A stretch of 64,000 nt of DNA. Source: Anoxybacter fermentans (GTDB lineage: Bacteria > Bacillota > Halanaerobiia > DY22613). The translations under genes and the position numbers were made by a program. The stretch spans positions 1,240,001-1,304,000 of the forward strand of contig NZ_CP016379.1 of assembly GCF_003991135.1 (NCBI RefSeq), in the 5' to 3' direction. A model generated the notes under the pieces. That model saw nothing but the letters and a program-made list of their open reading frames with translations, made no database searches and was not told the origin of the DNA. Position 1 is the stretch's first letter; every line of letters starts with the position of its first letter. This document shows positions 58,387-64,000 of this stretch, one piece after another.

Positions 58387-60789
58387 TCAACCAAATGTAT
58401 CTTCTTTTTTCAGAATACACTGACTTGCTACATATACCTGGCCCAAAGCTAAACCTCCATCATTGGTAGGAACCTGACAGTGCTGAAATACTTCAAACCC
58501 TTCTCCTTCCAGACATTTTTTCAATCCCAAACTCAATAACCGATTCTGAAAAACACCTCCGCTCATTACTACACGCTGAAGCCCCAATTCCTGACGAATC
58601 TTTATACATAAATTTAAAGCCATCTCCACAACTGTTCCATGAAACCGCCGTGCAATCTTATAAGCCTTTTTGCCTGCACGTAAATCCCTTATAATAGCGC
58701 TAATTATCGGTAAAGGGTTAATCACAAATGGTGGACTATCATCTTCTACAATAAAGGGATAAGGCTCTCCTAATTCTTCACCGGCCAGTTCCTCCAATTC
58801 AATAGCCGCCTGGCCCTCATAGCTTATCCTTGTTCTAATTCCCAATATTGCGGCAACAGCATCAAAAAGCCGACCCATACTTGAAGTTTCAGGTACTTTA
58901 ATTCCTTTTTCAATAATTGTTTTAAGCATATTTATCTCATCCTTAAGAGAATACCAGAATGGTAGCTCCTGCAACCAATCTGCATCTGGCAAAGCCTTTA
59001 AGAGATAAGCAACCCCAATCCGCCAGGGTTCCTTAACCCCTTTATCACCACCAGGAAGGGGCAAATATTTAAGATGTGCCCAGCGTTCAAACTTTTCTGG
59101 TGAAGCTATCAATATCTCACCACCCCAGATTTTTCCATCTGTCCCATATCCGGTTCCATCAAAAGCAAGGCCAATTACTTGTCCATCTAATCCATGCTCT
59201 GCCATACAGCTAGCAATATGGGCATGATGATGCTGGACACCTATCAAACGCTTATCCTTATACTTCTTTAAAGCAAATTTAGTAGATATATATTCAGGAT
59301 GAAGATCATGTACTACTATTTCCGGTTCAATTTCAAATAACTTCACCATCTCATCAATCATTCGCCGGTAGTGATATAGACTATTTTTGGTCTTCAAATC
59401 TCCGATATGCTGACTCATAAATACCAGTCCTTTCTCCGCCAGTGCAAAAATATTATTCATCTCTCCCCCACAAGCAAGAATCGGTTCTTTTACTGCTGGC
59501 AATCTCAAGGGTATTGGAGCATAACCCCGACTTCGTCTTATCATCACTGGGCTATTATCAACCCGCTGAACTGAATCATCGCAAGGTCGTACAATCCGGC
59601 GATTATGGACAAGAAAATAGTCCACTATATCTCCTAATCGTTCCACTGCCTCCTGATCATCGTAAATAATCGGCTCTCCACTTATGTTTCCACTGGTCAT
59701 TACCAGTACCGGTAATGATTCATCGAATAAAAGATAATGAAGGGGCGTATATGGTAACATTACACCTAACCGACTCTGGGCAGGGGCAACCTCTAATGTA
59801 ATTCCATCATAGCCTTTAGCTTTCCACTTTAGTAAAACAATTGGCCGAACAGGACTGATAAGCAATTTTTCTTCCTCAGAAGAAACCTGACAATACCGGC
59901 GTACCACATCCAGATTAGGCATCATTACCGCTAAAGGTTTATCCGGCCGATACTTCCGTTTCCGTAAATTTTGTACTGCTTCACGATTTAAAGCATCACA
60001 TACCAGATGATATCCACCCAGTCCCTTTACTGCTGCAATTTTACCTTTTTTAAGTTCAGTTTTTAACTGAAAAATAGGCCTGACCCATTCAGGCAATAAA
60101 CCGATACTTTTATCACCCTTAACTTTTTCACAGAGCTCATAAGTTGCGGCAACTTCATCAACCAATCCATAATCTAAACTTGATCGTTCGTCTACTCTCT
60201 TCCCTGTTCTATCAGTCAGCCATACCTCTGGCCCACACACCGGACAGGCATTGGGCTGTGCATGGAATCTACGGTTTTTTGGATCATCATACTCTCTTTG
60301 ACATTCAGGACACATAATAAATTCGCGCATTGTAGTATATAACCGATCATAGGGCATCTCTTCGATGATCGTAAATCTTGGCCCGCAGTTGGTACAGTTT
60401 ATAAAAGGATAAAGATATCGTCGATCTTGAGGATCCATCATTTCCCTATAACAATCCTCACATAACGCCATATCAGGTGAAATTAGCGTCTTTACCTTTT
60501 CAGAACGATCCGAAGCACGGATAATAAATTCATTATCGCCAATTGGGTCTATAGACCAACTCTTTATAGAAACAATATGTGCTAGCGGAGGAGCCTTTAA
60601 TTTAATATCCTTAAGAAAAGCATTAAGTTTAGATCCACTCCCCTCAACTTCTATAAGAACTCCAGCACTATCATTAGTTACCCAGCCAGTCAAACCATGT
60701 TCTAAAGCAAGATTAAAAATAAAAGGGCGAAACCCAACTCCCTGAACTATTCCATTTATTCTAATCGCTATCCTTTCCCGGTCACCCAT
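58387..60789 (-). CDS. hypF: [NiFe]-hydrogenase maturation carbamoyltransferase HypF
   Basis: 800 residues, typical. Domains in order: acylphosphatase (RINGIVQGVGFRPFIF), two zinc fingers (CEDCYREMMD, CTNCGPRFTI, CPECQREYDDP, CPVCGPEVW), a YrdC-like domain (KGLGGYHLVCDA, MVMTSGNISGEPI region) and a Kae1-like domain with the metal site HHHAHIASCMAEH and GLAFDGTGYGTDG. It makes the thiocarbamate on HypE from carbamoyl phosphate for the cyanide ligands of hydrogenase. No other hyp gene is in the window. Confidence 0.96.
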   Translation of the reverse strand: MGDRERIAIRINGIVQGVGFRPFIFNLALEHGLTGWVTNDSAGVLIEVEGSGSKLNAFLKDIKLKAPPLAHIVSIKSWSIDPIGDNEFIIRASDRSEKVKTLISPDMALCEDCYREMMDPQDRRYLYPFINCTNCGPRFTIIEEMPYDRLYTTMREFIMCPECQREYDDPKNRRFHAQPNACPVCGPEVWLTDRTGKRVDERSSLDYGLVDEVAATYELCEKVKGDKSIGLLPEWVRPIFQLKTELKKGKIAAVKGLGGYHLVCDALNREAVQNLRKRKYRPDKPLAVMMPNLDVVRRYCQVSSEEEKLLISPVRPIVLLKWKAKGYDGITLEVAPAQSRLGVMLPYTPLHYLLFDESLPVLVMTSGNISGEPIIYDDQEAVERLGDIVDYFLVHNRRIVRPCDDSVQRVDNSPVMIRRSRGYAPIPLRLPAVKEPILACGGEMNNIFALAEKGLVFMSQHIGDLKTKNSLYHYRRMIDEMVKLFEIEPEIVVHDLHPEYISTKFALKKYKDKRLIGVQHHHAHIASCMAEHGLDGQVIGLAFDGTGYGTDGKIWGGEILIASPEKFERWAHLKYLPLPGGDKGVKEPWRIGVAYLLKALPDADWLQELPFWYSLKDEINMLKTIIEKGIKVPETSSMGRLFDAVAAILGIRTRISYEGQAAIELEELAGEELGEPYPFIVEDDSPPFVINPLPIISAIIRDLRAGKKAYKIARRFHGTVVEMALNLCIKIRQELGLQRVVMSGGVFQNRLLSLGLKKCLEGEGFEVFQHCQVPTNDGGLALGQVYVASQCILKKEDTFG

Positions 60790-60956
60790 CTTTTCTTATC
60801 TCTCCTTTTTTCCGTTTTTATCCAGAAGAAATATAAAAAATATCAGTAATCATTTCTTTTGAAACTTTTTAAACTAGCGAATAGCTTTCCCAAAAGATTT
60901 ATCTTTTAGGCAGCATATCCAATCCAGATCAAGATAACTTTTCCTAATAAATAAAA

Positions 60957-61093
60957 TGATTAAACTGCAAAAAGCTAATTTTGAGTGCTATTGAAATTTT
61001 TCATTAAACCATCTTAGTGAGATTTCAGTCGAACTTTAGATGGTTCGAAAAATTTCTTTTGAAGTGAAAAATTAACTTTTTGCAGCAAAATCA
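60957..61093. repeat. Palindromic intergenic repeat, short form (copy 8)
   Basis: TGATTAAACTGCAAAAAGC at the left, CTTTTTGCAGCAAAATCA at the right. B-type left arm, A-type right arm. Its middle is nearly the same as that of copy 1 (GAGATTTCAGTCGAACTTTA), a close sister copy 57 kb away. It lies between the divergent hypF and DUF5685 genes. The surrounding 60790-60956 and 61094-61307 show no gene. Confidence 0.9.
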
Positions 61094-61307
61094 CAAAATG
61101 TTTCTTTAATAAATTCGCTGATATGTTTAATTTTTCCTTCTAACCCTTCCAACGATAAATCTCTTTTGATTCTTTAAATTAAAAATCATAATTCCGCAGA
61201 ATAGAAATAAATTTGTTAGAAGTGAGGTATTTTATTAACAAAATCAAAGGAATTTTCTCATAGATGATGAACTTTAATATTAAAAATAAGGAAATTTTTT
61301 ATTATAG

Positions 61308-61526
61308 GTTATACTACAAAAAGCTAATTTTTCACTTCTTGAGAAATTTTTCGAATCATCTAAAGCTCGATTTCCGTCGAAATAAGGCTTCCTAATCAAA
61401 GGGCCCTCCTGGTCCCTTGATTAGCTCATCACCTCCTGTGATGAGACCTTATTTCGTCGGAAATCTCGCAAAGATTTGGCGAAAAATTTCTATGTCACTC
61501 AAAATTAGCTTTTTACAGTATAATCA
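61308..61526. repeat. Palindromic intergenic repeat, long form (copy 9)
   Basis: Begins GGTTATACTACAAAAAGC or close to it and ends TTTTTACAGTATAATCA. A-type left arm (CACTTCTTGAGAAATTT), B-type right arm. Both apical hairpins are complete (CCTAATCAAAGGGCCC with GGTCCCTTGATTAG, and CTCATCACCTCCTGTGATGAG). It ends 25 bp before the DUF5685 start and so occupies the promoter position. Confidence 0.9.
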
Positions 61527-61551
61527 TAAATACGTAAAGAGGTGAAATAAA

Positions 61552-62682
61552 ATGTACGGAATTTTAAAAGCTCGTAAATGCCAGGCTACTGAACAACAGT
61601 ACCGGGAGTTCAAGGCATATTATTGTGGGCTTTGTGACGCTTTAGCTACCTATTTTGGAAATTTGAGTCGAATAACTGTTAATTACGATATGACTTTCTT
61701 TTATCTTCTTTTAGATAGCCTGGTGGAAAAGAGTCAAAGAACTACCGGATTATGTCCCACTACTCCCTGGAAAAAACGGGATATCATTGTTAATAAGTAT
61801 CTGCACCCCTTTCTGGGAGCGGCAAATATCTATCTGGCTGGTCTTAAACTTAAAGATGACCTTTACGACCAGACCAGCGTAATTAAAAAAATTAGTTATC
61901 AGGCTTTTCAGGGAAAAATGGTGAAAGCTGCTCAAATCTTATTAGATTTGGGTGTTGACATGACAAAAGTAAATAAATTTTTTGAAAATCAGTTGATTCA
62001 AGAAGCTTCGGGAAAATCATTAGCTGATTACTATCAGGTTACTTCCCAGGGATTAGCTTTTCTTTTGAGTGAAGGAAGTAAGCTATTAAATCTACCTGAA
62101 AAAACACGCCTCGAACTTAAAAAATTAGGATTTGAATTAGGTAAGGTTATATACATTATGGATAGTTTTGTCGATTATCCTTCTGATACAAAAAATGATC
62201 GGTTTAATGCACTGGCTCAGGCCTTTGGTGATCAAATTCAATTAGTGGGCAATCTTTCTCCTGAAATCCGTAATGAAATTTACACTGTACTTCAAAATTC
62301 CCTTCAGAACACGATTCAGGTAATCGAAAAAATGGATTTTAAAAAGAACCGGGATTTGCTCAATCTTATCCTGCAAGAATTGCAAATCAAGGTTCAGTTT
62401 TTAGTAAAAAATACCCGTGATATGGAAGAAGTCGAAAAGATTGTCAAATCCGCTTCACCAATTTATCTGTTAAAACACCCAACCTATTTCTTTAAAAGCC
62501 GGGCAGCTCATCGGAAGTATGATCGCCACTATCATCACCATCATGACTGCTGTTGTGATTGTTGTGATTGTGATGATCTAATCACAACAGCCATCTGCTG
62601 TGATGCAGCCGATTGTGACTGTGATGCTTTAGAGTGTCTCAGCACTGGCAATCCCTGCGAACTTCTGGAGTGCTTCTGTTGA
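61552..62682 (+). CDS. DUF5685 protein with two aspartate motifs and a Cys-rich tail
   Basis: 376 residues, AGAGGTG ribosome site 7 nt upstream. The N-terminus MYGILKARKCQATEQQYREF and YYCGLCDA (Cys25, Cys28) mark DUF5685, a family without known function. It is mostly helical. KLKDDLYD (Asp102, 103, 106) and IMDSFVDYPSDTKNDRFN (Asp204, 208, 212) look like the two metal-binding aspartate motifs of isoprenoid synthases; this is an inference, not a family assignment. The last 50 residues contain five His and 14 Cys (for example YHHHHDCCCDCCDCDD), a likely metal-binding tail. It is coupled by a 1-nt overlap to a DUF502-like gene, then to a polyprenyl-synthetase-like gene. Confidence 0.8.
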   Translation: MYGILKARKCQATEQQYREFKAYYCGLCDALATYFGNLSRITVNYDMTFFYLLLDSLVEKSQRTTGLCPTTPWKKRDIIVNKYLHPFLGAANIYLAGLKLKDDLYDQTSVIKKISYQAFQGKMVKAAQILLDLGVDMTKVNKFFENQLIQEASGKSLADYYQVTSQGLAFLLSEGSKLLNLPEKTRLELKKLGFELGKVIYIMDSFVDYPSDTKNDRFNALAQAFGDQIQLVGNLSPEIRNEIYTVLQNSLQNTIQVIEKMDFKKNRDLLNLILQELQIKVQFLVKNTRDMEEVEKIVKSASPIYLLKHPTYFFKSRAAHRKYDRHYHHHHDCCCDCCDCDDLITTAICCDAADCDCDALECLSTGNPCELLECFC

Positions 62683-63119
62683 TGATGCCGGATTTAAAAA
62701 CTATTCTGCTTGGCTTAGTAATTTTACTTATTGCGGGATTGCTTTATTTGCTGAGACGACAACTAATGCTTTTGGCCATCAACCGCGGAATATTAATTAT
62801 TCAGAAACTTATCTTGAAAATACTGACTACATTAGGTGATTATAAAGCACCCAAATGGGTATTAGTAGAATATCCAAGCAAGGGAATATTTACACTGGGC
62901 ATCCTCTCTCAAACCGGTAAGACCAGATCAACGATATATATACCTTCCGGCCCAAGGTTAATCCCTGGCCAGACGGTCTTTCTTGACAATAATAATTGGC
63001 ATCATCTAGATTTAGACTTTGAAGAAGGTCTCAGAATAATAATCACCCTTGGCCTTGATCCCGGAACCGGGAAAATCTCACATAAAATCTGGAATAGAAT
63101 GGAGGATTTTCAGAGTTGA
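62682..63119 (+). CDS. DUF502-like small membrane protein
   Basis: 145 residues. The start ATG at 62682 overlaps the DUF5685 stop TGA by one base; GGAG lies about 13 nt upstream. One N-terminal membrane segment (ILLGLVILLIAGLLYLL), then a region like DUF502 proteins (WVLVEYPSKGIFTLGILSQT, IYIPSGPRLIPGQTVFLD). Only the C-terminal portion of DUF502 is matched. No function is known for the family. The overlapping gene arrangement suggests equal production with its neighbours. Confidence 0.65.
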   Translation: MMPDLKTILLGLVILLIAGLLYLLRRQLMLLAINRGILIIQKLILKILTTLGDYKAPKWVLVEYPSKGIFTLGILSQTGKTRSTIYIPSGPRLIPGQTVFLDNNNWHHLDLDFEEGLRIIITLGLDPGTGKISHKIWNRMEDFQS

Positions 63120-64000
63120 TAATCAAAAAAATTTACGAACATAAGTTGAAAAAATATCGCAACAAAATTAATAATCAATTAACACAAATTGTCCAGAATA
63201 AAATTGATGATGACAAGATAATAGAAATGATGCACTATGCTTTAGAAAGTGGCCGTAGATTTCGACCACTACTCTTTTTGTTGACCTACAAAATCTTTCA
63301 GCCTGAACTGGATAATAAAACTTACCAAATGGCTACCGCCATTGAACTTTTACATAAAGCTTCCCTGGTTCATGACGACTATCTTGATGGAGATAAATAC
63401 CGTCGTGGTAAGGCCAGCTTTTACCATAAATATGGTGATAGAATGGCAGTAATTGTAGGGGATATTCTGGTTAGCCTGGCCTTTGAAGAATTTCTTAAAG
63501 CTACAAATGATCCCTATCTGGTCCAGAGCTGGTCACGACTCTACCGCTTGTTAGCGCTGGGAGAAGCCAAAGATTTAATCTGGGAAGGAAATCAGGATAT
63601 TGATACCGAAAAGTTGAAATCCATGATCTACGGCAAAACAGCCAGTTTTCTGGAATTTGTCATGATAGCTGGTTGCTATCTGGCAACCAGGAATCAGAAG
63701 CTGGCTACCAAAATGGGACAGTTTGGCAAAGAGATCGGTTTTGCCTTTCAGATTATGAATGATCTGAATAATTGGTGTGGGTTAGAGAAGAAGTTGGGAC
63801 GCCTCCCCCAGCAAGATATCATATCTGGCAAAGTCAATCTGGTTACAAGGCTTGTTCAGCAGTATCAAACTTCAGTAATAGACCCTGCAAAATTAAAAGA
63901 ACGTGTTACAAATGAAGCCAAAGAGCTGGCTCTTCAACATATAAAAGCAGCTTATTGTATTTTAGAAAATCTGGACATTAATAATAAATACACTAAAGTT
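63116..64000 (+). CDS. Polyprenyl-synthetase-like protein, partial at window end
   Basis: The TTG start at 63116 overlaps the previous stop (TTGA) and has GGAGG about 10 nt upstream. 295 residues are read before the window ends; the family is about 300-350. ALESGRRFRPLL and the first Asp-rich motif VHDDYLDGD (Asp87, 88, 91) are well kept. The second motif, normally FQxxDDxxD, reads FQIMNDLNNW (215-219), losing two of the three usual aspartates. It may be a catalytically altered prenyl transferase or a partner subunit. Translational coupling ties it to the DUF5685 and DUF502-like proteins. Confidence 0.8.
   Translation, partial: MIIKKIYEHKLKKYRNKINNQLTQIVQNKIDDDKIIEMMHYALESGRRFRPLLFLLTYKIFQPELDNKTYQMATAIELLHKASLVHDDYLDGDKYRRGKASFYHKYGDRMAVIVGDILVSLAFEEFLKATNDPYLVQSWSRLYRLLALGEAKDLIWEGNQDIDTEKLKSMIYGKTASFLEFVMIAGCYLATRNQKLATKMGQFGKEIGFAFQIMNDLNNWCGLEKKLGRLPQQDIISGKVNLVTRLVQQYQTSVIDPAKLKERVTNEAKELALQHIKAAYCILENLDINNKYTKV

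Follow-up and report, generated by a model that had tools for sequence, protein, structure and literature searches.

A DUF5685 protein of Anoxybacter fermentans with a predicted isoprenoid-synthase fold and a recurrent cysteine-rich tail

What does a protein of the family DUF5685 do when its gene overlaps that of a membrane-anchored protein, which in turn overlaps that of a polyprenyl-synthetase homologue? The locus that raises this question lies at the end of a 64,000-nucleotide stretch of Anoxybacter fermentans DNA (the window; bases 1,240,001–1,304,000 of the complete 3.56-Mb chromosome), and in the literature searched DUF5685 is all but absent, with one incidental mention. An earlier sequence-only reading of the window took the three genes for a prenyl-related membrane pathway. 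The comparisons presented here suggest that DUF5685 belongs to the isoprenoid synthase superfamily as a new branch, which apparently does not elongate and which has a dedicated Cys-tail partner, and the recurrent hallmark of the family is a Cys-rich tail that is found either on a partner gene or fused to DUF5685 itself. The best explanation of the whole, which we offer tentatively and with less than even confidence, is a system that uses a prenyl diphosphate to modify, probably by S-prenylation, this Cys-rich tail. The features of the DUF5685 gene, which is preceded by a strong ribosome-binding site (AAAGAGGTGAAATAAAATG) ahead of its start at 61552, are given below, with conservation counted over a set of 132 DUF5685 sequences (61 after 60% redundancy reduction).

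61552..62682, + strand: DUF5685 gene (gene 1), 376 residues, with a core at residues ~6–288, a flexible linker and a Cys-rich C-terminal tail
61624..61635, + strand: C25-x2-C28 (Y24-C-G-L-C), part of a three-Cys set, 132/132
61753..61755, + strand: C68, the third invariant Cys (132/132), in a predicted beta hairpin between helices (DSSP strands 62–68 and 71–80)
61855..61869, + strand: first Asp motif, D102-D-x-x-D106 (DDLYD), the equivalent of the first aspartate-rich motif (FARM), aligned with HDD of polyprenyl synthases
62161..62187, + strand: second Asp motif, D204-x3-D208-x3-D212, the equivalent of the second aspartate-rich motif (SARM), 132/132 for each Asp, aligned with FQITDDILD
62548..62679, + strand: Cys-rich C-terminal tail (CCCDCCDCDD...CELLECFC), 44 residues, predicted to be disordered with a predicted local distance difference test score (pLDDT) below 50

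Membership of the family is not in doubt, as gene 1 matches Pfam DUF5685 (PF18937) over residues 1–275 with 167.2 bits (curated cut-off 26.7; E 6e-49), and an isoprenyl-diphosphate-synthase fold is supported by prediction. An AlphaFold2 model of the window protein has a mean pLDDT of 82, with values above 90 for most of residues 11–280, and its comparison to the PDB with VIA-align gives a top Z of 19.8 over 251 residues at a root-mean-square deviation (rmsd) of 3.1, where chance matches between helical bundles are expected to stay below about 13. The 50 matches listed (Z 19.8–17.1, ~225–260 residues, rmsd 3.0–3.7) all come from isoprenyl diphosphate synthases or their close relatives. A second AlphaFold model, that of a clostridial DUF5685 protein about 24% identical to the window branch (pLDDT 93), reaches Z 19.1 with isoprenoid synthases or close relatives again making up the 50 listed matches, and the alpha/alpha-barrel beta-subunit fold of CaaX-type prenyltransferases is not found among the 50 matches listed for either model. 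The fold assignment rests on predicted models since a sequence-profile search of solved structures with DUF5685 gave no meaningful match, and the modest Foldseek E-values of the two models (5e-4 and 4e-3) mean that the relationship to isoprenoid synthases is a remote one. When family profiles are compared, DUF5685 scores 30.5 against polyprenyl synthases (maximum of 20.0 in 40 column shuffles and 17.6 when reversed) and 25.8 against squalene/phytoene synthases (maximum of 19.9 in 40 column shuffles), with its Asp motifs in register with those of the former and apparently also with those of the latter. The sequence-only reading had proposed an isoprenoid-synthase-like protein from KLKDDLYD (residues 99–106) and IMDSFVDYPSDTKNDRFN (residues 202–219), and both the fold, as predicted (Z 19.8 and 19.1), and the equivalence of these segments to the paired Asp motifs are borne out.

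The conservation of individual residues tells what kind of enzyme this may be. C25, C28, C68, D102, E151, D204, D208 and D212 occur in 132/132 sequences, and this invariance of Asp, Glu and Cys implies an enzyme under strong constraint. D106 and N219 are each present in 131/132, G197 and Y201 reach 98–100% in the reduced set, and the middle residue of the first motif, Asp103, is found in 78/132. The basic residues of GGKRxRP and RRG have no conserved counterpart in these sequences except possibly R40 (93%), and no Arg or Lys is conserved after residue 106, so the RRG feature of enzymes that elongate with isopentenyl diphosphate (IPP) is absent. Canonical and ComQ-type enzymes have a Gln ahead of the second motif, where DUF5685 has Tyr201 (98%). 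DUF5685 thus looks like a Mg2+-prenyl-diphosphate enzyme of isoprenoid-synthase fold and not a canonical elongating synthase, and its three-Cys set is a likely candidate for a metal site.

A recurrent association of DUF5685 with other genes emerges from a survey of 97 DUF5685 loci, mostly from Clostridia. At 87/97 loci there is a same-strand gene from a single cluster of mostly small J-domain proteins, with a median position directly after DUF5685, and 73/97 have a membrane protein of ~170 residues downstream. The linked J-proteins end in a Cys-rich tail (e.g., CxxCxxLWCADTCCECMGGDLISCC). An open reading frame (ORF) whose final 30 residues include 5 or more Cys, on the same strand and within 3.5 kb of DUF5685, is present at 92/97 loci, compared to 21 others among ~4,800 ORFs; the ORF counted at one of the 92 loci (L042) is 55 codons long and probably spurious, and the true tailed protein is encoded farther upstream. 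In L042–L045, the Hsp70-type clusters, the small Cys-tailed protein stands upstream within the same cluster. DUF5685 itself bears the tail, as a fused segment, in the window genome, the sister genus and a Nocardia plasmid; the tail of the window protein also carries a His run, which is not kept in the sister genus. A search of 8 genomes with a clostridial tail gave significant matches solely beside DUF5685 (5/8), the one further match being insignificant, and a search of the window genome with its own tail returned a single match, the DUF5685 gene. With matches confined to DUF5685 loci, the tail seems to be a dedicated partner and not a general sorting signal. A J-protein partner was sought elsewhere in the window genome, where just a canonical DnaJ-type match was found, and we found no literature on Cys-tailed J-proteins of Clostridia.

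Two of these arrangements deserve description in their own right. The loci L042, L043, L044/L152, L045 and L153 represent an undescribed cluster that combines Hsp70 paralogues (~510 residues) with a small Cys-tailed protein, a protein whose end is a degenerate J-like segment, a DUF2232-like membrane protein and a polyprenyl synthetase with the NDxNN motif; DUF5685 is encoded there on the opposite strand. On the plasmid of Nocardia sp. PE-7 (L159:6001-7862) the fused Cys tail of DUF5685 is DDACDGGCDPVPDDCCDGSECCD, and the following gene contains YLDALRDWPSDVAAGR, which resembles the second Asp motif of DUF5685; kinship between the two proteins is not claimed, as the similarity amounts to one short D-x3-D-x3-D-like motif (0.8 bits).

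We now turn to the genes downstream of DUF5685 in the window.

62682..63119, + strand: DUF502-like gene (gene 2), 145 residues, with a hydrophobic N-terminal anchor
63116..64000 within the window, + strand: polyprenyl-synthetase homologue (gene 3) of the NDxNN/WFW subfamily, 315 residues, with its stop at the window-equivalent position 64063
63374..63388, + strand: FARM of gene 3, DDYLD, intact and followed by RRG
63758..63772, + strand: degenerate second motif of gene 3, NDLNN (DDxxD in both housekeeping paralogues)

The earlier description of gene 3 as a polyprenyl-synthetase relative is upheld by its match to Pfam polyprenyl_synt (PF00348, E 2e-49). The genome encodes two more polyprenyl synthetases with a canonical DDxxD second motif, and gene 3 is a specialised third copy in which this motif is degenerate (FQIMNDLNN, including the upstream Gln). 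With an intact first motif, an NDxxx pseudo-second motif and the upstream Gln, gene 3 has the features of ComQ-type enzymes, and the conserved WFW at the C-terminus of its subfamily (EWFW in gene 3) is a candidate prenyl acceptor. Among 398 genomes of the phylum, searched with a profile of the subfamily, there are 7 clear members (E <1e-110; the next at 1e-53), which belong to the window genome and to two further families, f18 and f72. DUF5685 lies within ~7 kb in 5/7 of them, while the remaining 2/7 are on 3-kb contigs of incomplete metagenome-assembled genomes with the same Hsp70 or membrane-protein neighbours. DUF5685 itself is present in just 44/398 genomes, so its pairing with the gene 3 subfamily is far from random. 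The pair of DUF5685 and polyprenyl synthetase recurs in three GTDB families; in a tree, a supported branch (95/90) separates the linked DUF5685 proteins and three others from the clostridial J-protein group, and the link to the gene 3 subfamily needs two changes on this tree. A role of gene 3 as family 2 encapsulin cargo, for which an NCBIfam profile ranks high, was rejected at 135.6 bits against a cut-off of 450.

Gene 2 has no Pfam match at E≤1, including to DUF502 (PF04367), and its description as DUF502-like nonetheless stands, since in hhalign its C-terminal 75 columns align with a profile of 20 genuine DUF502 proteins at 97% probability (E 3e-11, 31% identity). The idea that it is a variant of the membrane protein seen in clostridia, or of the DUF2232-like one, finds no support in profile comparison. 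The overlaps on which the idea of matched production was built are present as read: the ATG start of gene 2 at 62682 sits in TGATG (1 nt shared with gene 1) and the TTG start of gene 3 at 63116 sits in TTGA (4 nt shared with gene 2). Past the window end there follows, with an 11-nt overlap with gene 3, a fourth gene for a membrane protein of 144 residues from the A24 (type IV leader peptidase) family (Pfam Peptidase A24, 28.1 bits, cut-off 26.5, E 2.9e-6), with a candidate Asp pair (KDL, GAADVK) that is present here and in the sister genus. The same four-gene order is found in Halothermothrix sp. B5_bin.9, of the sister genus, at 62, 55, 59 and 53% identity, where genes 1 and 2 are ~72 nt apart and do not overlap. 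The trio proposed from the sequence therefore recurs as part of this four-gene order, yet in its form with the DUF502-like gene it is shared with that genus only. Likewise, the prenyl-related character given to the locus agrees with the fold of DUF5685 and with gene 3, but the unit should be drawn as DUF5685 plus a Cys tail, usually on a J-protein, which had been overlooked.

The surroundings of the run are as follows. The hypF gene (window 58387–60789) lies on one side, and beyond the window end (L002:6499-13726) there are hypE, hypD, hypB, hypA, a TatC-like gene, a maturation protease and the large and small subunits of a NiFe hydrogenase (named by eye); the four genes are on the opposite strand to the hyp genes and look as if they split the hyp cluster. 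Upstream of DUF5685 are two elements resembling miniature inverted-repeat transposable elements (window 60956–61093 and 61300–61532) that share the terminal inverted repeats CTGCAAAAAGCTAATTTT...AAAATTAGCTTTTT, one of them ending ~20 bases ahead of the DUF5685 start codon. In the sister genome (Halothermothrix sp., L040:1-5974) an apparent CRISPR (clustered regularly interspaced short palindromic repeats) array with cas3- and cas5-like genes is directly upstream of the DUF5685 operon.

With the Cys tail present and the canonical Arg residues missing, the locus is better described as an acceptor-modifying system than as a classic chain-building isoprenoid pathway. We propose that DUF5685, without elongating it, would bind a prenyl diphosphate via Mg2+ on D102/D106 and D204/D208/D212 and use it on the Cys-rich tail of its partner, a thioether being the most likely product. 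In clostridia the acceptor would be the tail of the J-domain protein encoded next door, while in the window genome, with the tail fused, DUF5685 may modify its own chain or that of an adjacent subunit. A metal, either structural or activating the acceptor thiol, may be bound by the invariant CxxC and Cys set. Gene 3, with its NDxNN motif, could supply the prenyl donor or be itself a transferase of ComQ type, the second of the locus; anchoring or trimming of the product could fall to the two membrane proteins, DUF502-like and A24-like. What the comparisons establish is the predicted fold, the unvarying motifs, the dedicated tail and the repeated pairing with an unusual polyprenyl synthetase, from which the substrate, the acceptor, the bond to Cys and the tasks of the membrane proteins are inferred. 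In a bolder version of this proposal, cysteine prenylation in bacteria would have DUF5685 as its founding enzyme: an isoprenoid-synthase fold with a metal-bound Cys set of its own would prenylate the dedicated Cys-string tail and so place a J-domain chaperone (here the enzyme itself) on the membrane. Such a system would be widespread in Clostridia and independent of the eukaryotic CaaX enzymes; this we consider doubtful.

Several observations weigh against prenylation of the tail. The characterised peptide-modifying enzymes of isoprenoid-synthase fold all target Trp and not Cys (PMC13290415), and the Trp-recognising Gln, three residues ahead of the second motif, is Tyr201 in DUF5685. Most DUF5685 loci are without a linked polyprenyl synthetase. 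The motif of gene 3 also has a more ordinary parallel, as in a genome of the same class (G012, L156:6783-7835) a polyprenyl synthase with NDLND stands beside a methyltransferase of MenG/UbiE type (menaquinone-type), so that an ND second motif, seen here in a likely menaquinone-pathway synthase, is not diagnostic by itself. The window tail aligns to clostridial J-protein tails no better than shuffles do, the two being alike in position and composition, and their homology is not claimed. Finally, a tail rich in Cys, Asp and His could equally bind metal.

The alternative that fares best is that DUF5685 is a small-molecule isoprenoid enzyme, performing a squalene/phytoene-like head-to-head condensation or a terpene-type reaction to make a membrane lipid. 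The J-protein/Hsp70 partner would help it to fold or to reach the membrane, and the Cys tail would be no more than an anchor. A DxxxD in both motifs is the squalene/phytoene synthase pattern, and DUF5685 has it, with its second-motif region aligning to these enzymes; chaperone partners that recur at DUF5685 loci and the frequent ~170-residue membrane protein (73/97) also fit such a role. The absence of a PF00494 match (E≤1), the place of polyprenyl synthases at the head of the fold matches, and a constant partner that is a Cys tail and not a redox or lipid-tailoring gene speak for something else, and we regard this explanation as unlikely, if a serious contender. The possible metal-binding of the tail gives rise to another explanation, by which the tail would carry metal or Fe-S and the J-protein, helped by Hsp70, would be an HscB/HscA-like chaperone that inserts a metal centre at the CxxC and Cys site of DUF5685. 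The invariant three-Cys set, the Cys-dense J-protein tails together with two Hsp70 paralogues in one branch, and the His run of the window tail would all be accommodated. The loss of that run in the sister genus does not favour it, standard Fe-S assembly genes are not among the recurrent neighbours at the 97 loci, and it gives the isoprenoid-synthase active site no stated role, which together make it improbable. That DUF5685 instead joins gene 3 in a heteromeric polyprenyl synthase, where its part would be regulatory or at least not catalytic, as their shared fold and translational coupling in the window genome might suggest, is very unlikely because its catalytic Asp residues never vary, whereas the small subunit of geranyl diphosphate synthase is without them (PMC7839719), and a gene 3 of this kind is missing from most genomes with DUF5685.

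Modification of the Cys tail by a prenyl-diphosphate-using DUF5685 is therefore the explanation we carry forward. Placement in the isoprenoid superfamily, an invariant active site and a near-constant Cys tail give this family, common in Clostridia, a concrete and testable function. If the tail is prenylated, bacteria would possess a cysteine prenylation machinery of their own; otherwise, another explanation will be needed for why a chaperone, a Cys string and an enzyme of isoprenoid fold go together.

It is useful to set DUF5685 beside the systems that it most resembles. With the trans-isoprenyl diphosphate synthases (PF00348) it shares an all-alpha fold over ~250 residues and a pair of Asp motifs that agree in order and register, and it differs from them in its low identity (~10–13%), in lacking conserved GGKRxRP and RRG, and in having a DxxxDxxxD second motif, a three-Cys set, a beta hairpin and a Cys-tail partner. 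ComQ and PalQ are peptide prenyltransferases of isoprenoid-synthase fold (PMC5331326; PMC10853753), of which ComQ prenylates a Trp of the ComX peptide, keeping the FARM and requiring NDxxx (or GDxxx) in place of the SARM (PMC5331326). DUF5685 resembles ComQ, PalQ and ChrPC in fold superfamily, in the retained first motif and in having an apparent acceptor encoded by the neighbouring gene or fused to the enzyme, while it is gene 3 that shares the NDxxx pseudo-second motif of ComQ. These enzymes act on Trp of small peptides, whereas the candidate acceptor of DUF5685 is a Cys-rich tail, often on a J-protein, and a Tyr takes the place of the Trp-recognising Gln of the ComQ/PalQ class. The squalene/phytoene synthases (PF00494) have the DxxxD of both motifs and appear to show a weak in-register profile similarity to DUF5685, and are set apart by the lack of a Pfam match and of squalene or carotenoid genes among its recurrent neighbours. 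MoeN5, the moenomycin prenyltransferase, is among the best Foldseek matches to DUF5685 and uses this fold to prenylate an acceptor other than IPP; its acceptor is a phosphoglycolipid, and no Cys tail or J-protein partner is described for it. The eukaryotic cysteine string protein (DNAJC5) is a J-domain protein with a string of lipid-bearing cysteines. The Cys string of the DUF5685 partners differs from that of DNAJC5 in standing at the very C-terminus, and the clostridial partners are similar to it in layout, a likeness by layout alone.

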